Shown here: positions 1 through 58,328 of the stretch, piece after piece | Numbering within the stretch: the first letter of the stretch is position 1 | How the letters are laid out: each line of letters begins with the position of its first letter | DNA from: Campylobacteraceae bacterium | Lineage (GTDB): Bacteria > Campylobacterota > Campylobacteria > Campylobacterales > Sulfurovaceae | Length of the DNA stretch: 64,000 bases | Assembly (NCBI GenBank): GCA_027035765.1 | Contig: JALVUD010000044.1 | Span: 62,001 to 126,000 of the forward strand | Reading direction: 5' to 3' | Translations under genes and position numbers: made by a program | The notes under the pieces: generated by a model | What the model was told of the DNA's origin: nothing | The model's database searches: none | The model's input: the letters and a program-made list of their open reading frames with translations, nothing else

Positions 1-629
1 TAGCCGTGTTCCTCCATCACCCGCTCGGCCAGCCGGTATCCGGGCCACTCCATCGCAAAAGGGCGATCCCGCGCCTCCATCAGCTCCGCCGCCAGCCCCA
101 TCGCGTCGATGAAACCGGAGCAGACCACGATCCGATCCGCATGGCAGCGGGTCCCGCGGATCCGGTTGAGATAGGAGGCGATCTGCTCACGAAACCCCGC
201 CTCCCCCTGCCCGTCGGGATAGGCGCCGAAGTCCAGATCCTCCTGCAGCACCCGCGCGCTGAGACGCCGCCAGGTTTTGACGGGGAAAATTTCGGGGCTC
301 AGACGCGCCGGATAGAAGTCGTAGCGTACCCGCTCTGCCCCGATAAGACTTTTTTGGGCGTCGGGCTCTTTGTCGGGGATGTGGTCGACCGCCAGGAGAT
401 CCTCGGCGACGAAATAGCCCGACCGTGGGCGGCTCTCGATGTACCCTTCGGCATAAAGTTGGGAATAGGCGGCCTCCACCGTAGTGCGGCTGATGCGGTT
501 TTCGGCTGCCAGCGCCCGGATGGAAGGGAGCCTGGCCCCCGGTTTCGCCTCGTGAAGGATCCACTCTTTCAAAGTGAGGTAGAGGCGTTCGGTGAGGGTC
601 CCGCTCCCCTCCGGCAGTTTCAATATCAC
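1..629 (-). CDS. MocR/PdxR-type GntR-family regulator with aminotransferase-like domain (3' end beyond window)
   Basis: Partial: at least 209 residues read from a GTG at 629 to the window edge. I chose GTG because a GAGGGGG ribosome-binding site lies 6 bases upstream and the ATG at 651 runs into a stop after eight codons. Residues about 8-75 form a winged helix-turn-helix of GntR type (LPSIRALAAENRISRTTVE), followed by the start of a fold-type I aminotransferase-like domain (YDFYPARLSPEIFP, then DFGAYPDGQGEAGFREQI). Known family members bind PLP in the C-terminal domain and control vitamin B6 or amine genes. The gene is divergent from a pyridoxamine-oxidase-like gene at 721, so that gene is the likely target (inference). 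The catalytic-lysine region lies outside the window, so PLP binding cannot be judged. Confidence 0.85.
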   Translation of the reverse strand, partial: MILKLPEGSGTLTERLYLTLKEWILHEAKPGARLPSIRALAAENRISRTTVEAAYSQLYAEGYIESRPRSGYFVAEDLLAVDHIPDKEPDAQKSLIGAERVRYDFYPARLSPEIFPVKTWRRLSARVLQEDLDFGAYPDGQGEAGFREQIASYLNRIRGTRCHADRIVVCSGFIDAMGLAAELMEARDRPFAMEWPGYRLAERVMEEHG

Positions 630-720
630 AACTGTCCCCCTCTTTTTTTCATTATTTGGCCCTTTTACTAAGGTCAGATCGGCGCTATCATAGCGTATCC
701 ACTTGAGAGGAAGCAGGATC

Positions 721-1323
721 ATGAATGCGGAAACGATACAGAGAATTCTGGAGACGTCCCCCTACGCCAGTCTGGCATTGAGAGAAAAAGAGGGGGTGTC
801 GGTCGTCCCCGTCAGTTTCGCCGGAGACAGGGAAGCGATCTATTTTCACGGCAAAAAGGGCGGCAGAAAAATGGAGGCGATCCGTCAAAGCTCACATGTC
901 TTTGTCAGTATCGTCGAACTGGGGAGTCTGATCCCCTCCTACTTCAGCTCCGAGGAGGGGCTGGCCTGTCCGGCGACGCAGTTTTTTGCCTCTCTGGAGA
1001 TCGAGGGATCTGCCCGGGAGCTCCACTCCTCAAATGAGAAGGCCCGGGCGCTGGAAAAACTGATGCGAAAATACCAACCGGAAGGCAATTACCTCCCTCT
1101 GGACAATGAACCCCGCTATGCCAAAGCCCTGGAGGCCACGGCGGTGGTGGAAATCGCCGTCGAGCAGATCCATACCAAAGTCAAATACGGGCAGAAGCTC
1201 CCTGCCGAACGTTGGGAGAGGATCCATCGTTTTCTCGCGGAGAGGGGGACAGCTCTGGATCTGGAGACTCTACGACGGATGGAACACTATCGCAAAAAGG
1301 AGAAGAGCAATGGAAATTCGTAA
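721..1323 (+). CDS. Pyridoxamine 5'-phosphate oxidase-like (FMN-binding split-barrel) protein
   Basis: 200 residues. ATG 721 is preceded by GAGAGGAAG; an in-frame TTG at 703 is less likely. The N-terminal stretch (SPYASLALREKEGVSVVPVS, then IYFHGKKGGRKMEAI) matches the split-barrel flavin-binding fold of the 5-nitroimidazole reductase/PNPOx-like group, where residues around the K-x-x-K segment contact FMN phosphate. Such proteins are flavoenzymes or flavin chaperones of mostly unknown substrate. The last codons overlap the next gene (GNAT, 1310) by 14 bases, so the two are co-transcribed. The divergent MocR-like regulator suggests a link to B6 or amine metabolism (inference). Family placement is good; the reaction is unknown. 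Confidence 0.8.
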   Translation: MNAETIQRILETSPYASLALREKEGVSVVPVSFAGDREAIYFHGKKGGRKMEAIRQSSHVFVSIVELGSLIPSYFSSEEGLACPATQFFASLEIEGSARELHSSNEKARALEKLMRKYQPEGNYLPLDNEPRYAKALEATAVVEIAVEQIHTKVKYGQKLPAERWERIHRFLAERGTALDLETLRRMEHYRKKEKSNGNS

Positions 1324-1921
1324 CGCTACACCGGAAGATATCGACGCGATTTTGCGTCTGCACCGCTGCTATCAGGTCGATACGATCGCCGACGAGGATC
1401 GCTCCGACGGCTTCGTCACCACCGACTTCACCCCCGAGCTGCTGCGGGAGCTCATCGAGAGCGATGAGGGCTTTTTCATCGCCGCCCGTGAAGATGGAGA
1501 GATCGCCGGCTACGTGATGGCCGCTTCGTGGGGGTTCTGCTCCCGCTGGCCCATTTTCGCCCGGATGATCGAAGATCTGCCGACGCTGAGCTACCGGGGA
1601 ATCCCACTCTCGACGGAAAACTCCTATCAGTACGGCCCCGTCTGCATCGACAAACCCTCCCGAGGGAGCGGACTGCTGGAAGAGATTTTCGAATTCGCCC
1701 GGGAAGCGATGCAGCCCAGCTATCCGGTGCTGGTGACCTTCGTCAACAAACAAAACCCCCGCTCCTACGCGGCCCACAGCCGAAAACTGGGGCTCGATAC
1801 GATCACGGAGTTCGCTTTCAACGGCAACGAATACTACGAAATGGCCTGTTTGACCGGGGAGGATCTGGAAAGACGGCTGGAGAACCAAACTTTGGCAACG
1901 CGAATTCATTCGCGTCTATAG
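1310..1921 (+). CDS. GNAT-family N-acetyltransferase
   Basis: 203 residues. ATG 1310 sits inside the end of the preceding flavin-protein gene, with AAAAGGAGAAG as ribosome-binding site. The N-terminus (MEIRNATPEDIDAILRLH) and the FFIAAREDGEIAGYVM strand are typical of the GNAT fold; YGPVCIDKPSRGSGLLEEI corresponds to the acetyl-CoA-binding beta4-alpha3 element, with R/G-x-G modified to SRGSG. A C-terminal strand (NGNEYYEMAC) follows. Substrate unknown. Translational coupling to the upstream gene implies a shared function. The last residues (RIHSRL) run into a repeat-rich gap that begins with a small hairpin at 1954. Confidence 0.85.
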   Translation: MEIRNATPEDIDAILRLHRCYQVDTIADEDRSDGFVTTDFTPELLRELIESDEGFFIAAREDGEIAGYVMAASWGFCSRWPIFARMIEDLPTLSYRGIPLSTENSYQYGPVCIDKPSRGSGLLEEIFEFAREAMQPSYPVLVTFVNKQNPRSYAAHSRKLGLDTITEFAFNGNEYYEMACLTGEDLERRLENQTLATRIHSRL

Positions 1922-1953
1922 AGGAGGGAAGCCTTTTTGTGTCAACCCCTTTT

Positions 1954-1971
1954 CCGGGAATAAATTCCCGG
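1954..1971. repeat. Mini-hairpin CCGGGAAT-AA-ATTCCCGG
   Basis: Perfect 8-bp inverted repeat with a 2-base loop, 33 bases after the GNAT gene. It is the same type as the hairpins at 4993-5010 and 33516-33533 (GCGGGA..TCCC type). No T-tract follows, so it is better read as an interspersed palindromic element than a terminator. Confidence 0.6.
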
Positions 1972-2009
1972 TTCCGTAAAACGACATTGCGAAGCTACCC
2001 CAACCAAAG

Positions 2010-2044
2010 TTCCTAACTCCTCATTCCTAACTCCTAACTCTTCT
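2010..2044. repeat. Degenerate heptanucleotide tandem repeat at the dusB 3' end
   Basis: Five phased heptads on the + strand (TTCCTAA, CTCCTCA, then two more of this type and CTCTTCT). On the dusB strand they read GAGTTAG-like units; the dusB stop TAG (2036-2034) is part of the array. Same class as arrays at 4899, 5057, 8593, 8637, 30982, 32515, 32591, 33731 and 40590. Confidence 0.8.
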
Positions 2045-2987
2045 TTAGAGGCTTCTGGGAAAAAAACTCCTCCACCTTCCGGCGCATCAGTGCCGGATCG
2101 GTGATGGTGTTGACATCGTTGCGAAAGGCAGCGGCACCGGGATAGCCCACCTTGGAGTAGGTATGCAGGTGCTTGCGGAAGAGAAAGATACCGTAGTCGC
2201 CGTAATGCTCGATCATCCGATCGAAATGCTCCAGCACCACCTCCCGGATCAGTTCGGGAGGCGGGGTGTCGATCCCCTCTTTGATCTGGGCGAAGATCCA
2301 GGGTTTGCCCACGGCGGCCCGGCCGATCATCACCCCGTCACATCCGGTATACTCCAACACCCAGCGGGCCTTTTCGGGGGAGTCGATGTCACCGTTGGCG
2401 ATGACCGGGACGGAGACCGCCTCTTTGACCTCACGGATAGCATCGTAATCGACGGGAGCCTTGTAGCGCCCGGCCCGGGTGCGGCCGTGTACGGCGATGA
2501 AGTCGGCCCCGGCCTCCTCCATCACCTTGGCCAGCTCCACGTGGTTTTTCTCTTTGACCCCTAGTCGCATTTTGACGGAGGTGTAGGATTTGTCGGAGTA
2601 TTTTTTGATGGTCTCGATGGCCCGTCCCAGGCCTTCGGGATCTCCCAGCAGTGCGCTTCCCTGGAGATTGTTGACGATCTTGGGGGCGGGGCAGCCGCAG
2701 TTGAGATCGATCCCGTCGATCCCCTCCCGCGCGTTGAGCACCTCCAGCGTCCGCTTGATGATCTCCGGATCACTGCCGGCGATCTGCACGCTGTAGGGAC
2801 TCTCCAGCGGGGACTTCTCCAGCATCTTCTGGGTCTTTTTGCTCCCGTGGGCCAGGGCGTTGGAGCTGATCATCTCACTGACGGTCAGATCGACACCGAA
2901 CTTTTTGACAACGGAGCGAAAAGGGAGATCGGTAAAGCCCGCCAGTGGAGCGAGCACATAGAGTGGTCGGGAAAAATCAGGCCTCAT
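2034..2987 (-). CDS. dusB: tRNA-dihydrouridine synthase (DusB type)
   Basis: 317 residues from ATG 2987, which overlaps the stop of the upstream gene by 11 bases (ATGAGGCCTGA). FMN-dependent enzyme reducing uridine to dihydrouridine in tRNA D-loops. Visible hallmarks: LAPLAGFTDLPFR near the N-terminus, IDLNCGCPAPKIV with the catalytic Cys, the FMN-phosphate loop VHGRTRAGRY, and IANGDIDSPE then GCDGVMIGRAAVGKPW. Full length for the family. It ends the minus-strand group rlmH-dksA-membrane protein-dusB. The last two residues and the stop codon lie in a heptad repeat array, so the C-terminus may have drifted. Confidence 0.93.
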   Translation of the reverse strand: MRPDFSRPLYVLAPLAGFTDLPFRSVVKKFGVDLTVSEMISSNALAHGSKKTQKMLEKSPLESPYSVQIAGSDPEIIKRTLEVLNAREGIDGIDLNCGCPAPKIVNNLQGSALLGDPEGLGRAIETIKKYSDKSYTSVKMRLGVKEKNHVELAKVMEEAGADFIAVHGRTRAGRYKAPVDYDAIREVKEAVSVPVIANGDIDSPEKARWVLEYTGCDGVMIGRAAVGKPWIFAQIKEGIDTPPPELIREVVLEHFDRMIEHYGDYGIFLFRKHLHTYSKVGYPGAAAFRNDVNTITDPALMRRKVEEFFSQKPLKKS

Positions 2988-4017
2988 TGCAGGCGATATG
3001 AGCATCGATCAGGTCATCGATGCGGAAGTGGTGTTTCTCCCGTTTGAGGATCAAGAGGGCCCGGAAGGGCTTGAAATCATTCTCGCCATGTTCTTCCAGG
3101 AATTTCTCCGCATCGTCGATCATCTCATACTCGAACAAGAGATAGAGATAGGCGCTTTGGGCCGCCTCTTTCTCTTTGGCCAATTCTTTGAAGAGTGCCA
3201 GGTTCTGATCGGGATTGAAGTGACGTAATGCTGATTGAAGCAGACGAATATAATCGGGGCACTCCAGAGGGAAATGGACGGTAAAGATCTTGGCCATTTC
3301 AGGAGAGAATCCCAGATCTTCCTTTTTGCTATCGATACGTTCGAGGAGCCGGTAGAGATGTTTTTTATCCATCATGGGGAGGAAACGTTTGAGCTTGTAG
3401 AGATCTTCCCGTTCCACCATCGCCTCCAGCGCCCGCTCGACTACGGTAGGATCATAAGACTCTCTGGCCTGCAGGACATCTTCGGCAAAACGTTTTTCAT
3501 GAGCGATACGGTTGATCTGATTTTGAACCACCAGCGGATTCTCTTTGGAGAGAAAACGCTCCACCTTTTTGGCCCGCAGATCCACATACTCACCGTTCTC
3601 AATCTTCTTGACCCACTCGATGGTCTGCATCAGCTTGTCGGAGAGTCCGTGGATGTTACCCACTACCTGGATCCGGGAGACGTTGAGCAGAGGCGCTCCC
3701 TCTTTCATCTTGGGGATGGAATAGTGATGCTCTTTAGGCTCCTGGAGCAGTGCCCAGTAGAGGGCGTCTTTGAGCTCTTCGGCATCCCGGACCCATTTGC
3801 GGCGCTGGAAATAGCCCCGGGTACCGTGATAGGTCATATGCAGAAGGGTCAGGAGAAAGAGGAGAAGAAGCGGGAGGGCTATCCAGACGGCAACCGGCAG
3901 ATTGATCGTCACCCCCATAATCGTGAGGCTATGATACCCCGGATAGAAGAAATAGGTCACTCCTGTGGCGATGGCGATAAAGACAAGGCCCGAAAAGAAA
4001 TAGGTCCCCAGACGCAT
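2977..4017 (-). CDS. Conserved membrane-anchored protein of Campylobacterota, function unknown
   Basis: 346 residues. Two N-terminal membrane segments (about residues 7-26 and 42-62; GLVFIAIATGVTYFF and VAVWIALPLLLLFLLTLL) are followed by a charged, helical cytoplasmic region of about 270 residues that looks like degenerate helical repeats (VVERALEAMVEREDLYKLKRF, QSAYLYLLFEYEMIDDAEKF). I recognise no catalytic motif. The slot between a dksA-like gene and dusB is, from memory, occupied by a similar membrane protein in Campylobacter. The stop overlaps the dusB start. A scaffold or assembly role is only a guess. Confidence 0.8.
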   Translation of the reverse strand: MRLGTYFFSGLVFIAIATGVTYFFYPGYHSLTIMGVTINLPVAVWIALPLLLLFLLTLLHMTYHGTRGYFQRRKWVRDAEELKDALYWALLQEPKEHHYSIPKMKEGAPLLNVSRIQVVGNIHGLSDKLMQTIEWVKKIENGEYVDLRAKKVERFLSKENPLVVQNQINRIAHEKRFAEDVLQARESYDPTVVERALEAMVEREDLYKLKRFLPMMDKKHLYRLLERIDSKKEDLGFSPEMAKIFTVHFPLECPDYIRLLQSALRHFNPDQNLALFKELAKEKEAAQSAYLYLLFEYEMIDDAEKFLEEHGENDFKPFRALLILKREKHHFRIDDLIDAHIACNEA

Positions 4018-4051
4018 GATTCACTCCTCCTCTGTTCTTTTTACGGTACCT

Positions 4052-4405
4052 TCAGTGCTCCCGCTCTACGATTTCACGACAGACGATGCAGTAACGTGCA
4101 AAGTTTTTAACCTTCAGCCGTTCAATACCGATGGGTTCTTCGCACATTTCACAGATACCGTAGGTTCCGGCTTTTATTTTACCCAAAGCGATTTCGATCT
4201 CGTTGAGTTCGGCCCGCTGTTGCCGGATGATCCGATCGTCGATATCGGTCTCGATAGCCAGGGCGGCGAAGTCACCTTCGTCCTTGGGCTCCTGGTTCTG
4301 CATCATTACAATTTTATTCTCTGCCTCTTCAAGGTTCTTGAGAATCTGAGCCTTGCGCTCAGTCAATTCCTTCTCGAACTCCTGCAGCTCTTTCTGTGTC
4401 AGCAT
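4052..4405 (-). CDS. DksA/TraR-family zinc-finger regulator
   Basis: 117 residues. A long coiled-coil hairpin (residues about 1-80, ELTERKAQILKNLEEAENKI) is followed by a four-cysteine zinc finger, CEMC (about 88-91) and CIVC (about 109-112). DksA proteins insert the coiled coil into the RNA polymerase secondary channel and, with ppGpp, tune rRNA and amino-acid promoters. The coiled-coil tip has a D-x-x-A-like segment (DEGDFAALAIETDID), as expected for an active DksA. It is shorter than E. coli DksA (151), as usual for Campylobacterota. It follows rlmH by 16 bases in the same transcription unit. Confidence 0.9.
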   Translation of the reverse strand: MLTQKELQEFEKELTERKAQILKNLEEAENKIVMMQNQEPKDEGDFAALAIETDIDDRIIRQQRAELNEIEIALGKIKAGTYGICEMCEEPIGIERLKVKNFARYCIVCREIVEREH

Positions 4406-4421
4406 GGCGACTCCTGCCAGT

Positions 4422-4883
4422 TTATTTGTGGTACGGATGGTTATGAAGGATCGAAAGACCCCGAAAGATCTGTTCCATCAAAACCACTTTGACCAGCTTG
4501 TGTGAAAGCGTAATTCTACCAAAGGAAACGGATTTGTTACTTGTGTCGACAAAAGGGCGTTCGAAGCCGTAGGCACCGCCGATGTAGAAGTTGACCACCG
4601 CCCGATCCTTAAGCAGATCTGCAAAATCGAAACTACTGATCGATTTCCCCTCCGGATCCAGGACCACATCGTAACCGCTCCCCCGATAACGTTCCAGGGC
4701 CTGGGTGTAGGATCGTTGCGCCGCCTCCGGGTTCTGCTCCTGGGCCCGGGCGATCTCTTTGGTAAAGATCTCATGTACTTCCACCTGTGCCCAGGGACGG
4801 CAAAGTTTTCGATAGTGCTCCACCAGGGGCTCGTAGAGCTCTTTTTTGCCTTTTTTGTCGATGATGTAGAGGTTGATTTTCAT
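4422..4883 (-). CDS. rlmH: 23S rRNA (pseudouridine1915-N3)-methyltransferase RlmH
   Basis: 153 residues, usual length. SPOUT-class enzyme that methylates pseudouridine 1915 in helix 69 of 23S rRNA in assembled ribosomes. Features: LDPEGKSISSFDFA (family LD-x-x-G-x-x-x-S-S motif), the AdoMet-binding knot FYIGGAYGFERPF (family F-x-I-G-G-x-x-G), and the C-terminal LSHKLVKVVLMEQIFRGLSILHNHPYHK (family H-x-x-x-R-x-x-x-x-EQ-x-YRA variant) ending in the expected PYHK. First gene of the rlmH-dksA-membrane protein-dusB unit; its upstream gap is filled by repeats. Confidence 0.95.
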   Translation of the reverse strand: MKINLYIIDKKGKKELYEPLVEHYRKLCRPWAQVEVHEIFTKEIARAQEQNPEAAQRSYTQALERYRGSGYDVVLDPEGKSISSFDFADLLKDRAVVNFYIGGAYGFERPFVDTSNKSVSFGRITLSHKLVKVVLMEQIFRGLSILHNHPYHK

Positions 4884-4898
4884 TGTTTTTCCAATTTC

Positions 4899-4975
4899 GT
4901 GCTACGTGTTATGTGCCAAGTGCTAAGTATTGAGTCGCAAGGTGACCAGTCATTGGTCACTGGTTATTGGGGCAG
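4899..4975. repeat. Eleven-unit degenerate heptanucleotide array
   Basis: Continuous 7-base phasing for 77 bases upstream of rlmH: units such as GTGCTAC and GTGTTAT, then GTATTGA, then AGTCATT, GGTCACT and GGTTATT. Units drift in sequence while the 7-base period holds, so the array evolves by unit duplication with mutation. It runs directly into the AGGGCTTTCGTCCT hairpin at 4974. Confidence 0.75.
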
Positions 4976-5044
4976 GGCTTTCGTCCTGCACTGCGGGAAT
5001 GAATTCCCGCCTCCATTCCAATCGATAGCATTGCGTAGCAACGC
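4974..5044. repeat. Cluster of three mini-hairpins
   Basis: AGGGCTTTCGTCCT at 4974-4987, GCGGGAATGAATTCCCGC at 4993-5010, and GCATTGC-GTA-GCAACGC at 5028-5044. The first two recur together at 33498-33533, the third at 30956-30972. The gap 4884-5077 is thus entirely mosaic repeat sequence with no gene. Confidence 0.7.
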
Positions 5045-5056
5045 AAACCGAAACTG

Positions 5057-5091
5057 CCAACTACTCACTCCTCACTCCTAATTCCTCACTC
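5057..5091. repeat. Heptanucleotide array at the helicase 3' end
   Basis: Units CTCACTC (three times), CTAATTC and CCAACTA on the + strand, that is GAGTGAG on the coding strand. The helicase stop TAG (5080-5078) and its last three codons lie inside the array. Confidence 0.8.
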
Positions 5092-6391
5092 GTTTTTGCG
5101 ATTCAACAGAATCGTAAAAACGCACCACTCTTTCATCCACTCGGATCGCCTGCTCCAGATAGCGTTCCAGATCTCCCCGGTTGAAGTCGATCTTGAGCCC
5201 TTTGGGGTCGGTGGCCCGGGAGATCGCCACGTAGAACTGGCTGGGGACGAAGAGGGTGTCGACATTGCAGACCAGCCGGTCGATGCTCATCCCCTGGGAC
5301 TTGTGGATCGTCACCGCATAGGCGGGTTTGAGAGGAAACTGTTTCAGGATCGCCAGAGGACGCATCTCCACCCTGCCCTCGCCGTCCAGTGTCGGCTCCC
5401 CCAGAACAAACTCGTGAGGCTCCACCCGGACGAACTCGTTTGCCTTCTCCACGATCAGAAACTCCTCTTCCACCCCCCGGAGGATCCCCCGTTCTCCATT
5501 GACATAACGCCCCCATTTGTTGACGGTGAAGAGTACCGGTGCCCCCACCTTGAGCCGCAGCTGCTCCTGGACCGGCAGCATCTTTTTCCAGCTCTCCAGG
5601 CGCTTTTCGTGCAGGGCCTTCTCCTTCTCCAGCTCGGCAAAAAAGAGATACTCCTCCCCCTCCAGCCGATCCAGAGACTCCCGATTCATCCGCTCCACCT
5701 CCTGGTTGCGCCCAAAGAGCCAGGTGGGATCGAGGCCGTAGACCTCTTCGTTGTTGCAGAGCTTCAACAGATAGTCCGTCACCTCTCGGTCCCGGATCCC
5801 CTGTCGGATCTTTGAGAGGATCCGGGTAAACTCCGTATCCCGGGTCCGGTGCATCTGCTTCAGCTCCACCGTATGCGGAGCGAAGCTTTCCCAGGCCCCA
5901 CTCTCGAAGGCGTAGACCGCTTCACCGAAAAGAGAATCGGAAGGTCGATCGCTGCGGACCACCGGCGGAAGCTGATAGAAATCCCCCACGAACATCACCC
6001 GCCCGCTATAGCCCAGGCTCTCCAGACGGTAGCGGATCATCTCCAGGGTCTCGACGCCGATCATGCTCACCTCATCGATGACGATGAGCTCCGTCGCCTT
6101 CAACAGCCGTTTCAGATCTGCCAGGCGTTTCTTGTTGCGCCGGTCATGTTCCCGCAGCACTTCGAAACTGTTGCAGATCCCCAGGACAAAAAAGCTGTGC
6201 AGAGTCACGCCCCCGATGTTGACGGCACTCACTCCGGTCGAACCCAGGGCCACGACCCCACGCTCCTGCTCCCGGTAGGCTTCGATGATTCGGTTGGTCA
6301 TCCAGCTCTTGCCGGTCCCCGCCGCTCCGGTGAGAAAGAGATGGCCCTGCTCCAACATCTGCAAAAGATCATCAACGGTGGGATCGCTCAC
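5078..6391 (-). CDS. Pif1/RecD-like superfamily 1B DNA helicase
   Basis: 437 residues from GTG 6391, chosen for AAGGAG six bases upstream; an ATG further upstream lacks such a site and would extend through the promoter region. Motifs: Walker A GAAGTGKSW (residues about 23-31), LGSTGVSAVNIGG, Walker B IVIDEVSMI, motif III FVGDFYQLPPV, and the C-terminal VTIHKSQGMS and FYVAISRA motifs of SF1B helicases. Pif1-like enzymes move 5' to 3' and resolve G-quadruplexes or R-loops; bacterial members are often accessory. Single gene; the C-terminal RVRN is encoded by heptad repeat. Most Campylobacterota carry a homologue at variable loci (recollection). Confidence 0.88.
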   Translation of the reverse strand: MSDPTVDDLLQMLEQGHLFLTGAAGTGKSWMTNRIIEAYREQERGVVALGSTGVSAVNIGGVTLHSFFVLGICNSFEVLREHDRRNKKRLADLKRLLKATELIVIDEVSMIGVETLEMIRYRLESLGYSGRVMFVGDFYQLPPVVRSDRPSDSLFGEAVYAFESGAWESFAPHTVELKQMHRTRDTEFTRILSKIRQGIRDREVTDYLLKLCNNEEVYGLDPTWLFGRNQEVERMNRESLDRLEGEEYLFFAELEKEKALHEKRLESWKKMLPVQEQLRLKVGAPVLFTVNKWGRYVNGERGILRGVEEEFLIVEKANEFVRVEPHEFVLGEPTLDGEGRVEMRPLAILKQFPLKPAYAVTIHKSQGMSIDRLVCNVDTLFVPSQFYVAISRATDPKGLKIDFNRGDLERYLEQAIRVDERVVRFYDSVESQKRVRN

Positions 6392-7380: not shown

Positions 7381-8640
7381 TCATTTGGAAAGCGAATCGT
7401 TCTTGACCTTCCTCATTACTTCGGCGATCTTTTTCCGATCGGGAGCTTCTCCACCCCGGCCGTAGAGCCGTGCTTCCAGCTGCCTAAGATAGGGGCGAAG
7501 CTCGGGACGGTCGCTGTAGGGAAGCAGCATCTTGTAGAGAGTTGCATCATCGGGAGCTTTGAGGATCGCCCGGCTCAGTTCACTCTGCCGCTTACGGCGA
7601 CTCAGAAATTTCGCCAGGAGCCAAACGAAGAATCCTCCCAATGCAAATCCCGCCGCGAAGATCGCCAGACGCAGCCGATTCTCCCGCTCCCAAGCGGGGT
7701 TTTTGACTTCGATAGCCAGCGGAGGGGTCTGAAGGACCTCCGGCAGCTCCGTCTGGAGGTTGAAATAGCGAAAACGAATGGAGGGAACGGTGTAGTCTTC
7801 ATCCGCCAGAACCGTAAAGCGCTGGACGAACTCTGTGCGATACTTTCCCTCCCCCAACCAGCGGGTCATCACCTGCGGTTTGGAAGGGTAGACGATCGCA
7901 CCGGGGATCTTCAGATCGAAGGGAGGGATATAGCGGGTATTGCCGATGCCGGCGATATGCAGTTCCAGATGAACGGGACGGTTGGCCAGGGTTCGATTCA
8001 CATCGCTGACGAGTCGCATCCGGTAGTCTCCCACCACTTTGAGCGCCCCCGGCACCTCCCGCACCGTGATCTTCTCCGGATTCGTCCGATAGGTATGGGT
8101 GATGTAACGGTAGTTTTTTTTGTTCTGATAGGCCAATTCGATCTTTTGGGGAGGTATGGTGAGCGTTCCAGGCTTTGTCGGTGTCAGCAAGTAACGGAAG
8201 TTCTGCACCACCTCACCGTGCTTTTTCTTCGGGGCACTGACGTTGAGCTCTTCCACCTCGAAAGCCTCGAGCCCGGCAGGTTTGAAGTGAACGCTGTCCA
8301 CCTTCATCGTCTGCGGATAGCTGAGGGTGAAGCGGGCCAAAACCGGCTCACCCAGCCAGGCCTTGTTTTGTGAAAGTTTCAACGAGAACCTGGCTCCCTC
8401 ATCGGCATAGGATAAGGTGGTGACAAGGAGAAGAAGTGCCAGGAGTATTCCTATTGAGTGTTCTGAAAAACAACCGTCATTTCGGGTTTGACCCGAAATC
8501 CAGGGCTTTGAATTCCCATCAAACCGTGGATCCTGAATCGAGTTCAGGAAGACGAAACTATCATATTCTTCAGTAGGATGAATCAGAACAGAGTTACTAG
8601 TTACTCGTTCCTCGTTACTAGTTAAAAAAACGCTGCTCAC
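7381..8640 (-). CDS. batD: BatD-like protein (aerotolerance operon), N-terminal region repeat-derived
   Basis: Up to 419 residues. From about residue 63 it has a signal sequence (IGILLALLLLVTTLSYA), then oxygen-tolerance/BatD beta-sandwich repeats (SQNKAWLGEPVLARFTLSY, NRTLANRPVHLELHIAG), a transmembrane helix (LAIFAAGFALGGFFVWLLAKF) and a cytoplasmic tail. BatD works with BatA/B/C in a periplasm-facing complex linked to stress tolerance. Oddity: no ATG, GTG or TTG exists in frame between the signal sequence and a GTG at 8640. That GTG and its GAGGAG site come from a heptad repeat, and the 62 residues between are encoded by heptad plus REP-like sequence. Either the protein carries this extension, or CTG/ATA near 8450 initiates, or the start has been lost. 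Confidence 0.8.
   Translation of the reverse strand: MSSVFLTSNEERVTSNSVLIHPTEEYDSFVFLNSIQDPRFDGNSKPWISGQTRNDGCFSEHSIGILLALLLLVTTLSYADEGARFSLKLSQNKAWLGEPVLARFTLSYPQTMKVDSVHFKPAGLEAFEVEELNVSAPKKKHGEVVQNFRYLLTPTKPGTLTIPPQKIELAYQNKKNYRYITHTYRTNPEKITVREVPGALKVVGDYRMRLVSDVNRTLANRPVHLELHIAGIGNTRYIPPFDLKIPGAIVYPSKPQVMTRWLGEGKYRTEFVQRFTVLADEDYTVPSIRFRYFNLQTELPEVLQTPPLAIEVKNPAWERENRLRLAIFAAGFALGGFFVWLLAKFLSRRKRQSELSRAILKAPDDATLYKMLLPYSDRPELRPYLRQLEARLYGRGGEAPDRKKIAEVMRKVKNDSLSK
8476..8558. repeat. REP-like double palindrome inside the batD 5' region
   Basis: GTCATTTCGGGTTTGACCCG at 8476 onward with its CCAGGG tail, followed by GTGGATCCTGAATCGAGTTC then AGGAAGACGAAAC to 8558. Inverted arms TTTCGGGT/ACCCGAAA and CCTGAA/TTCAGG. 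The same element type (CCTGA..TCAGGATCCACGG, GTGACGAAAC) is at 58172-58278. Confidence 0.7.
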
Positions 8641-9438: not shown

Positions 9439-11219
9439 TCTTTTTCTCCCCACTTCCATGGCACGCGCAAAGTGACGTCAGTCCTTCGCGTTTTCTTTTT
9501 CTTTGCTTCGTTTCCTTTTTCTTTGTCGCGAAACAAAGAAAAAGAAATGAAGAGGGGGCGCCAGGGAAAAACAAAGATCATCAACGCCAACAGCAAGGGA
9601 ATCCAATAGAGATTCTCTTCCCCGCTGACGGCAAGCTTCGTCGCCTTCCTCTCCCCTAGAGCCTCCTCCACCTCCCTGGCGATCTCCTTCAAATCACCGT
9701 CGTCGTTTCGGGCGACGAAAAAACGGCCGCCGCTCTGGCGGACCGCTTCGGCGAAACGGGGATCGAGACGAGTCACCACCACATCCCCGCGTTTGTCTCG
9801 GAGCAGCCCCTTTCCGTCGGGAATCGTCGCTCCCTTCTCTGTCGCCGTGCCGTAGCCGAAAAGCGTCAGATTCGCCTCCGAAGCCCGCCGTGCCAGAGCA
9901 TAAGGATCCTCGATCCCCTCCCCATCACTGAAGATCAGCAACACCCGGCTTCGGTTCCCCTCTCCCAGTTGGGAGGCTGCCTTCACCAGGGCGTTCCAGT
10001 CGTTCCCTTTCCGCTCGATGCTTTCCAGATCGATACCGTCAAAAAGCCGCCTGAGGGCTTCATAATCCCCGGTAGGGGGAGCCAACAGCCAGGCGCGGCG
10101 GGTAAAGAGCAACACCCCAACCCTGGTTCGATGTAGCTCCGCCAAAAGCCCCTTGGCTTTGTGGAGGGCGAAACGGAAACGGTCGGGATAGAGGTCCTTC
10201 GCCTTCATGGAGCGGGAGGCATCCAGGGCGATGAGCAGATCGCCGCCGGATCGAGGTACTTGCCGCAAGCCCCTCTCGATGCCGGGACCGTAAAGGGCCA
10301 ACAGACTCAGAAGCAGTGCCCCGCCTACAGGAAATACGCCCCGTCGTTGCCGGATTTTCAGCCAAAGCAGCAGCCCCAGCAATCCCACAGCCAGCGCGAG
10401 AGGAATTCGGTAGTAAGAACGCCGTTCGGTGCTGCGAAGGGTCTCGATAGAACTCTTCTCCAGTCGGTCGATACGGGCATAGATCGAGGTCAGCTCTTTG
10501 GGATCGGAAGCGTCGAAGAAGGCACCGCCGGTCTCCGTCGCAATGCGCTTCAGGACCCGGCGGCGGAAATCATCCCCCACGCCGATCGTATAGACCCGGA
10601 CCCCTGCCTCTTTCACCCGGCGGATCGCCGTCTGGAGGGGAACGGAACCCACGGTGTCGATCCCGTCGGTCAGCAGAATCATCACCCGGTTGTTTTTCGG
10701 CTCCTTTTCGAAAAGATCCGCCCCGGCAAAAAGCGCTTCATAGAGCGCCGTATCCCGTCCGCCGGCCACGCCGGGATGCAGATGCTTCAGAATCGTCTGC
10801 AGGCCGCTTTTGTCGTAGCTCATGGGCGCGGCAAGGCGGGCCCGGTCGCCGAAAACCTCCAGGGCCATCCGATCGTAGGGCCGATGGAGGATGAAATCCG
10901 AAAGCACCCGTTTGGCCGTCTCGAATCGGTCCCCCTCCCGCATGCTGTAGCTGGCATCGAGCAGGAGCGCTACGGAATAGCCTTTGGCATTATGCAGCGT
11001 TCGTACCTTCTCGGTCACCGGATTAGCCAGGGCTGTCACCATCAAAATCACGATACCCCAGCGGATCCATCGCTCCCGGCTCCCCAGGCCTCCGGCGGCC
11101 CGGCGCAGAAACTGAACATTGGAGAGCCGCAGCGTCGGAAGGGCCGGAAAGCAGCGCCGCTCGCACCACCAGTAAAGCGGCAAAAGCGCAAAGACCCAGA
11201 GATGGGCGAAATGTATCAT
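9435..11219 (-). CDS. Fused BatA-BatB von Willebrand factor A membrane protein
   Basis: 594 residues, about twice a normal BatA. First half: N-terminal membrane helices, a VWA domain with MIDAS motif DASYSM (about residue 88) and TDGIDTVG, then a membrane segment. Second half: helix (FPVGGALLLSLLALYGPGIE), a second VWA domain with DASRSM and FSDGEGIED, and a C-terminal helix (YWIPLLLALMIFVFPW). BatA and BatB are normally separate genes in that order; here they form one reading frame. The last 35 or so residues (from about KEKGNEAKKKKTRRTD) are encoded by the hairpin element at 9471-9554. Overlaps the DUF58 gene by 4 bases and batC by 4. Likely an inner-membrane metal-dependent scaffold acting with the MoxR ATPase. 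Confidence 0.88.
   Translation of the reverse strand: MIHFAHLWVFALLPLYWWCERRCFPALPTLRLSNVQFLRRAAGGLGSRERWIRWGIVILMVTALANPVTEKVRTLHNAKGYSVALLLDASYSMREGDRFETAKRVLSDFILHRPYDRMALEVFGDRARLAAPMSYDKSGLQTILKHLHPGVAGGRDTALYEALFAGADLFEKEPKNNRVMILLTDGIDTVGSVPLQTAIRRVKEAGVRVYTIGVGDDFRRRVLKRIATETGGAFFDASDPKELTSIYARIDRLEKSSIETLRSTERRSYYRIPLALAVGLLGLLLWLKIRQRRGVFPVGGALLLSLLALYGPGIERGLRQVPRSGGDLLIALDASRSMKAKDLYPDRFRFALHKAKGLLAELHRTRVGVLLFTRRAWLLAPPTGDYEALRRLFDGIDLESIERKGNDWNALVKAASQLGEGNRSRVLLIFSDGEGIEDPYALARRASEANLTLFGYGTATEKGATIPDGKGLLRDKRGDVVVTRLDPRFAEAVRQSGGRFFVARNDDGDLKEIAREVEEALGERKATKLAVSGEENLYWIPLLLALMIFVFPWRPLFISFSLFRDKEKGNEAKKKKTRRTDVTLRVPWKWGEKE
9471..9554. repeat. T-rich/A-rich hairpin element, copy 1 (within batAB 3' end)
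   Basis: Begins AGTGACGTCAGTCCTTCGCG, continues TTTTCTTTTTCTTTG..., and ends GCGAAACAAAGAAAAAGAAA then TGAAG. The arms TTTCTTTTTCTTTG and CAAAGAAAAAGAAA pair perfectly over 14 bases. Copies 2 and 3 are at 24172-24532 (split by a MITE-like insert) and 33596-33660. Copy 1 is read as the C-terminus of BatAB. Confidence 0.85.
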
Positions 11220-24171: not shown

Positions 24172-24532
24172 AGTGACGTCAGTCCTTCGCGTTTTCTTTT
24201 TTCTTTGCTTCGTTTCTCTTTATCACCTCACCAGGCAACTACCTCAATTTTTGAGAGAGCGAGACGGGGTGAGATGTGTGCAAAAAAAATCCGAAGGACT
24301 CCCCGTAGGGAATTCGAGGATTTTTTTGTGCGCAGATCGCCGTGTATCGCTCTCCCCCGGAGGGGTGCGGCACTTTTGCCCATATGCTGTGTTGGACTTT
24401 CTTGAATTAGCCTCCGGCTAGTCCTGCGAAAATCCGCCTTGCCTATGAACAAAATTGCCGCATCAAAAGTTTGAGGTAGTTACCTGGTGCGGTGATATCT
24501 ATGTCGCGAAACAAAGAAAAAAGAAATGAAGA
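24172..24532. repeat. T-rich/A-rich hairpin element, copy 2, split by an insertion
   Basis: Left part 24172-24220 (AGTGACGTCAGTCCTTCGCG, TTTTCTTTTTTCTTTG, CTTCGTTTC) and right part from about 24502 (GTCGCGAAACAAAG, AAAAAAGAAATGAAG) match the uninterrupted copy at 9471-9554. The two halves are parted by the MITE-like element 24223-24495. Confidence 0.85.
24223..24495. mobile_element. MITE-like non-autonomous element
   Basis: 273 bp. Terminal inverted repeats of 25 bases at 24223-24247 (begins TCACCTCACCAGG, ends CTACCTCAA) and 24471-24495, matching at all but two positions, each flanked outside by TA (24221-24222 and 24496-24497). TA duplication and short size suggest mobilisation by an IS630/Tc1-like transposase (family knowledge). 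The interior has a second inverted pair, GCAAAAAAAATCC (24280s) and GGATTTTTTTGTGC (24318-24331). No coding capacity. Its insertion into an older hairpin element dates it as the younger of the two. Confidence 0.82.
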
Positions 24533-33438: not shown

Positions 33439-33747
33439 ACTGTTCAAAAATTTTCATCTCCATCTTTTCGTGTCTCATTGAAAAAGTCATTAGAGACAGG
33501 GCTTTAGCCCTGCATGCGGGATTGAAGTCCCACCTCCAACCGATCGAATAGACAGCCTACTCGTCCGCAAAACCTCTTCGCATTGGCACCCCCTAAGTGA
33601 CGCCAGTCCCTCGCGTTTTCTTTTTCTTTGCCCCGAAACAAAGAAAAAGAAATGAAGGGGAGAGTCCTCAAAAACTTCCGTCTCTTGTTCGTGGGATAGT
33701 AATCCCACGCTACGAAACTTGGTTCCTCGGTTACTAGTTACTAGTTG
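33439..33747. other. 309-base gap made of repeats
   Basis: No gene. Contents in order: CAGGGCTTTAGCCCTG hairpin (33497-33512), GCGGGATTGAAGTCCCAC hairpin (33516-33533), T-rich/A-rich hairpin element copy 3 (33596-33660), GTGGGATAGTAATCCCAC hairpin (33691-33708) and a heptanucleotide array (33724-33765). Confidence 0.75.
33596..33660. repeat. T-rich/A-rich hairpin element, copy 3
   Basis: Starts AGTGACGCCAGTCCCTCGCG and has arms TTTCTTTTTCTTTG and CAAAGAAAAAGAAA around a short CCCCGAAA loop. It lacks the central CTTCGTTTC segment present in copies 1 and 2, so it is a deletion derivative or an older form. Confidence 0.82.
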
Positions 33748-33765
33748 CTAGTTACTAATTTTCCA
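33724..33765. repeat. Heptanucleotide array at the mtn 3' end
   Basis: TCCTCGG, TTACTAG, TTACTAG, TTGCTAG, TTACTAA, TTTTCCA. Reads TAG/TAA on both strands; the mtn stop TAG (33750-33748) and the residues KISN are inside. Confidence 0.8.
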
Positions 33766-58019: not shown

Positions 58020-58328
58020 GACAGATCAAGACCGGGAAGACCGGAATGTGCTACACTTTCCACCGAAACATCATCCGTAAAACCGATCGAGCCCTGTCAA
58101 AGCCTGAAAGTCGGTGCTGCATCATTCTGAACGTGATGAGGATCCAGAGATTGAGTAGTGTATGAAACCCTAGACCCCGGATCAGGTCCGGGGTGACGAA
58201 ACCCCAGTCATCCTGAGCTTGACTCAGGATCCACGGTATCAAAGGTCTTCAAACCCCTGGATTCCAAATCAGGTCCGGTACGATATAAAGCATTAATTGA
58301 AAACAAGTCCAAATTTGAAGGAGTCTTT
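58020..58328. other. 309-base gap carrying REP-like repeats
   Basis: No gene. After a unique stretch to about 58120, it holds CATTCTGAACGTGATGAGGA and the REP-like cluster 58172-58278; the last 40 bases form the AT-rich promoter and AAGGAG site of the gene at 58329. Confidence 0.7.
58172..58278. repeat. REP-like palindrome cluster
   Basis: CCCCGGATCAGGTCCGGGG (58175-58193) with GTGACGAAAC, then GTCATCCTGAGCTTGACTCA with GGATCCACGG to 58236, then CCTGGATTCCAAATCAGGTC. Same type as 8476-8558; widespread bacterial REP elements of this kind depend on a RAYT transposase, absent from this window. Confidence 0.75.

Follow-up and report, generated by a model that had tools for sequence, protein, structure and literature searches.

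The window (the whole 64,000-nt stretch of Campylobacteraceae DNA analysed here) contains a 275-bp element that is MITE-like mobile DNA, but not an ordinary MITE. The element has moved, and its ends pair to form an outer stem, within which two copies of a hairpin module lie in inverted orientation. The pairing has been kept through many changes, and the sister families of the element duplicate 2, 3 or 4 bp of target. The explanation that we favour, and consider reasonably probable, is a non-autonomous transposable element (a 'cloverleaf MITE') in which one structured chassis is mobilised in trans by several transposases of different kinds.

Extent and ends of the element

A MITE-like element with terminal inverted repeats (TIRs) and TA flanks had been proposed at this place by the first-pass annotation, and it proved real, with a 32-nt inverted repeat (24221-24252 / 24466-24497) that is 88% complementary and homologous copies by the dozens. 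Its termini read ATCACC...GGTGAT, or at greater length ATCACCTCACCAGGCAACTACCTCAA...TTGAGGTAGTTACCTGGTGCGGTGAT, and, as in other MITEs, a short length (275 bp) is combined with TIRs of 25-32 bp, multiple copies and an interior in which no protein-coding sequence was seen. Chance is not a sufficient explanation of the element, since the MFE lies far below that of shuffled sequences (-142.9 vs. -80.7 +/- 4.9 kcal/mol folded as RNA, z -12.7; z -12.1 as DNA) and dozens of homologous copies exist. The limits first given, 24223-24495, were moved outwards by one base on each side (Table 1), as the end letters A...T are conserved. Among 81 near-full-length copies, these letters showed 6 departures out of 162, compared to 35 for the flanking T...A (Fisher p 1e-6), and thus behave as part of the element.

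Table 1. Positions of the element, its parts and the interrupted older hairpin within the window
Feature	Position	Strand	Remarks
Whole element, family A (ATYACCGCACC ends)	24222..24496	+	275 bp; 81 near-full-length relatives, empty sites
Element proper if TA is counted as target duplication	24223-24495		
Left terminal inverted repeat, 5' side of outer stem	24222..24246	+	
Arm 1, ~100-nt hairpin module	24252..24353	-	apex GAAGGACTCCC-n-GGGAATTCGA on + strand; 50.9 bits, E 5e-10
Mini-hairpin CCCC-GGA-GGGG between arms	24355..24365	+	
Arm 2, same hairpin module	24366..24466	+	apex GAATTAGCC-n-GGCTAGTCCTG; 94.6 bits, E 5e-21
Right terminal inverted repeat, 3' side of outer stem	24472..24496	+	
Left half of older hairpin, split by insertion	24172..24221	+	
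Right half of older hairpin	24497..24531	+	match to 9471-9552 copy over 24498-24531
Intact copy of older hairpin	9471..9552	+	82 bp

Insertion into an older hairpin

The 275-bp element interrupts one copy of an 82-bp T-rich/A-rich hairpin, both halves of which match the intact copy, as had been noticed at first reading. The relative age that was then read from the nesting also held, as genome G006 keeps the hairpin uninterrupted at the syntenic place (flanks 93% and 88% identical over 1.3 and 1.6 kb), while genome G004 carries the same nested insertion as the window (locus L041); the hairpin is therefore older, and the element was inserted before G000 and G004 split. The nested pair thereby puts two repeat families in temporal order at one locus. 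The TA flanks are present at the window element, but the empty relative of the nested site reads CTCTTT^TTCTTTG, that is T^T and not TA.

Within its own genome (2.03 Mb), the older hairpin appeared in 13 long and several partial copies, and another, diverged copy starting with GACGCCAGTCC lies at 33584-33660 of the window. It carries GACGTC and, like the CGTC-tagged REPs reported for Sulfurovum sp. NBC37-1 (PMC3733652), a related lineage, it is a dispersed palindrome; the likeness is one of description, and the hairpin here is an 82-bp T-rich/A-rich sequence. Two other repeats were seen in the window: a 57-nt inverted repeat pair with a GGATCCTGAATC-type core (8497-8553 / 58207-58263, 81%), which looks like another dispersed repeat, and a short GTTACTAGTTACT-type repeat in two places (8593-8623 / 33730-33760, 87% alike).

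Copies and empty sites

The first-pass annotation had suggested looking for further copies and, across strains, for empty sites, and both were found. Besides the window copy, the own genome contains another full one (C15:8362-8634, 93%) together with two fragments. Relatives of the element were detected in 58 of the 175 host-family genomes (18 of 60 in a smaller set), with about 30 matches in G008 alone; among named records, the window family was present, for example, in MAGs of Nitratifractor, Sulfurovum and Sulfurospirillum. In 12 genomes, the end sequence ATYACCGCACC was counted 7-29 times each, compared to 0-1 for the reversed control. Almost all of the 81 near-full-length copies extracted were 267-275 bp long. 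Moreover, joined flanks compared with 13 congeners gave exact empty sites at about ten loci. In G008, msrB is interrupted by the element and is whole in at least five other genomes, and when the flanks at a truD-like frame (L071) are joined, the reading continues in frame, by inspection. Plasmid and phage collections gave no match to the element, and four matches in viral contigs were set aside, all of them being without the surrounding element.

With regard to the target, T stood at the left flank of 66 of the 81 copies and A at the right flank of 61, with TA on both flanks in 46 copies and in all four near-identical copies of G138. Because the resulting string is identical for a duplicated TA and for blunt insertion at T^A, the duplicated bases of the window family are not countable from sequence, and a zero-bp insertion was not accepted as proven. 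At several insertions, the adjoining one to three bases seemed to deviate from the empty site more often than the remaining flank did, as if insertion were slightly error-prone.

A cloverleaf built of two inverted modules

The whole element folds into a closed cloverleaf, in which the TIRs form the outer stem and are followed by a long arm 1, an 11-nt hairpin and a long arm 2, so that the stem encloses two inverted copies of a ~100-nt hairpin module, with a CCC-n-GGG mini-hairpin between them. A covariance model was built from arm 2 only, using 26 sequences from many families, including the other copy of the own genome and excluding the window copy. This model also matched arm 1 on the opposite strand (Table 1), and the two arms are therefore inverted copies of one module, with the apex GGACTAGCC-n-GGCTAATTC. 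Matches to the model, often two per element, numbered 68 in G091, 34 in both G172 and G189, 33 in G008, 29 in G138 and 25 in G039, with none in G002, G003, G007, G009 and G010. A single-arm form was also observed (L010/L004, G000:C33:448-521 and surroundings), where an arm-1-like hairpin lies within TTATCAGC...GCTGATAA and adjoins a T-rich hairpin fragment.

In an alignment of 66 copies, with counts uncorrected for relatedness, 97% of the 6396 cells were paired, and compensatory changes were found at 66 of 97 pairs. Double-changed cells numbered 768, compared to 216 after shuffling and no more than 130 when the alignment was slid as a control. Closest copies were further compared in 26 disjoint sister pairs. 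The outer stem showed 44 double changes, about 8 being expected for independent sides; 37 of the 44 went from one Watson-Crick pair to another, and 14 of these were transversional and thus arose without a G.T step. Per-base divergence in the same sister pairs was higher in the outer stem (0.109) than in unpaired columns (0.081), and a TIR that drifts fastest yet keeps its pairing is unlike a plain transposase-binding TIR. The internal loops and apices were conserved.

These conserved loops and apices, together with a G.U bias on the plus strand of arm 1, are also what a structured RNA would show, with a regulatory or protective core under RNA-level selection that was spread by whichever transposons picked it up. 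In arm 1, G.T cells outnumbered A.C cells by 394 to 29 (149 to 28 without the mostly-G.T pairs), in counts that ignore kinship. However, counted in the same way, there was no such excess in the outer stem (41 vs. 36) or in arm 2 without its fixed pair (23 vs. 27), and at gathering cut-offs no Rfam family was found for the window or the sister families, with chance matches only. We thus regard selection on an RNA as quite unlikely to be the main explanation.

The same core between different ends

An arm-apex scan covered some 85,000 species genomes, and the families and taxa given here are those among the matches listed, which also contain chance matches. In Campylobacterota and Gammaproteobacteria, the same core and layout, about 268-273 bp long, appeared between ends of at least six other sequences. 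End types in Campylobacterota included AACCTGAGTTCGACG, AGTACCTGACC, GACTTCTTGC, GGGCAYCTCTA, ACCCCTCC, TAAGTCCTTAG and others, while CTAGTGTACTG and AGTACTCC were found in Gammaproteobacteria (Thiodiazotropha, S141_57; some 309-354 bp). The own genome itself holds a GGGCATCTCTA-type element (C38:15639-15906), and reduced forms exist, either single-armed (163 bp) or consisting of TIRs only (55-61 bp; L153, L154). In a Chromatiaceae MAG, FCS_M_Gamma_042, many contigs end at or near the apex motif (L237-L239, L241, L263, L266, L278, L279), and elements of 181-191 bp with AGGACTCGCG ends were seen. Large inverted repeats in L239 and L285 were considered as an autonomous element and rejected, no transposase being seen inside.

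The target duplications varied among families. A near-identical burst of the GGGCACCTCTA family in the complete genome G091 showed a perfect 4-bp duplication (TATA, TTAT, ATAA, TGTA and others) in 15 of the 17 copies fetched and one of 6 bp in one more, and for this family overall 18 of 27 pairs scanned had a 4-bp duplication. A 3-bp duplication was found in 7 of 12 cases for the AACCTGAG family, and TA in 6 of 7 for the AGTACCTGACC family and in 3 of 4 for the GACTTCTTGC family. Differing lengths of target duplication normally indicate different transposases. With TA, 3-bp and 4-bp duplications on one core, the core was therefore read as a chassis used by several of them.

Search for a helper transposase

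The TA flanks, including those of the G138 copies, fit an ordinary IS630/Tc1-type MITE, that is, an IS630 deletion derivative with its helper lost or elsewhere and an incidental fold, and an IS630/Tc1-like helper had indeed been predicted by the first-pass annotation. That prediction was not supported, as DDE_3 (IS630) exceeded its curated cut-off in none of 24 element-rich carrier genomes (one match was sub-threshold). The search that it had suggested for a full-length IS with the same ends gave none among the ATYACCGCACC sites of 12 genomes. Furthermore, the TIRs are the fastest-changing part, the core is common to families duplicating 3 or 4 bp and compensatory changes run all through the interior, so that a derivation of this kind, already weakened, is now quite improbable.

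Another candidate was a Y1/HUH enzyme of the RAYT/TIRYT kind, reading the hairpin modules of a folded single-stranded DNA that is itself the transposing form, as has been proposed for REPINs. The inverted module pair with its conserved asymmetric apex and the excess of G.T over A.C on the plus strand of arm 1 are in keeping with this, and Y1 transposase genes were present in 25 of 34 genomes. Y1 genes were not seen in several element-bearing genomes, such as G004, G005 and G006. None of the 30 Y1 loci examined had element ends or the apex pair beside it, and the 3- and 4-bp target duplications of the sister families are not expected of IS200/IS605-type insertion, which leaves such an enzyme an unlikely mover.

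The end-pattern, DDE_3 and Y1 searches, which were non-exhaustive, found no autonomous partner for any family. The complete genome G091 contained no pair of GGGCACCTCTA ends at IS distance, and its solo GGGCACCTCTA ends were rejected as a helper locus for having ordinary-looking neighbour genes. Likewise, facing ends at 132-6104 of G005:C94 turned out to be solo ends around chromosomal genes and not an IS.

An IS1595-like gene of G091 (L412:2599-3234, or C1:1310998-1311633; homologues L413-L442) encodes ~200 aa with a weak PF12762 match. At E 1e-5 or better, this mostly single-copy gene had matches in 61 of the 175 genomes, in part via a short C-terminal stretch only, and, being kept in many host-family genomes, it resembles a domesticated transposase. 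A 4-bp-family element lay within 70 bp downstream at 2 of 30 loci, and an IS1595-derived MITE, with this gene as its helper, was therefore considered for that family. The element in G091 is its own insertion, with the duplication ATAG, and 28 of the 30 homologues had no element, so that the gene was set aside as a doubtful helper. It was not found in G000 or G008, and is therefore not the helper of the window family there.

Relation to known elements

Bacterial MITEs include NEMIS, ERIC, Nezha, RUP and others, and the element resembles them in size (70-300 bp), absence of coding capacity, TIRs, dispersed copies and strong secondary structure (PMC3733652). In contrast to these, the interior apices and architecture are conserved here while the TIR sequences are not, two inverted ~100-nt modules lie within the TIR stem, and one core is accompanied by 2-, 3- and 4-bp target duplications. 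The IS630/Tc1-derived MITEs share the TA flanks with the window family, but none of the 24 carrier genomes searched had their transposase above the cut-off. REPINs or REP dimers, and TIR elements with RAYT/TIRYT (PMC3733652, PMC3116915), are alike in being an inverted pair of imperfect hairpins dispersed intergenically. The two inverted hairpin units of these systems are present in the element, as the match of the arm-2 model to arm 1 indicates, whereas none of the 30 Y1 loci examined was flanked by the repeat; the modules here also measure ~100 nt and lie inside a TIR stem, and the sister families duplicate their target. Long hairpins are also carried by Thiomargarita MITEs (PMC4853749).

The libraries and literature searched, the latter with partial coverage, contained no match to a structured mini-transposon family of this kind, and its novelty is provisional. 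Ordinary mini-transposons are not known to recur as the same folded core with quite different end sequences.

Proposed mechanism and significance

Under the favoured explanation of a chassis moved in trans, a cut-and-join (DDE-like) transposase would read the TIRs of each family chiefly at their outermost bases. It would insert the element at TA in the window family, at 3-bp sites in the AACCTGAG family and at AT-rich 4-bp sites in the GGGCACCTCTA family. The heritable chassis would be the core, which came to be framed by different TIR sets, either because the outer stem was exchanged or because the arm pair was inserted into a mini-element made of TIRs only, comparable to the 55-61-bp examples. 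The probable reason for the retention of the fold is that the element must collapse on itself when single-stranded or transcribed, and hairpin-templated correction between stem sides may contribute to the pairing. Alternatively to a recruited chassis, the families could be deep relatives whose transposase changed specificity. A bolder reading, which we hold to be somewhat unlikely, is that of a new class of mobile element, whose folded core is conserved and recognised and whose ends are interchangeable. Several unrelated transposases would then carry the one chassis across Campylobacterota and Gammaproteobacteria, and each move would restore the stem pairing through hairpin-templated copying.

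The near-identical copies in the complete chromosome of G091, with perfect 4-bp duplications, make both the role of the fold and the trans-acting transposase directly testable. The usual picture of a MITE is that of an element defined by its TIRs, the interior being leftover sequence. Here the reverse was observed, with the fold and length of the interior conserved and the TIR sequence changing fastest, across families with different duplications. If the proposed explanation is true, a structured chassis can be reused in the making of mini-transposons.
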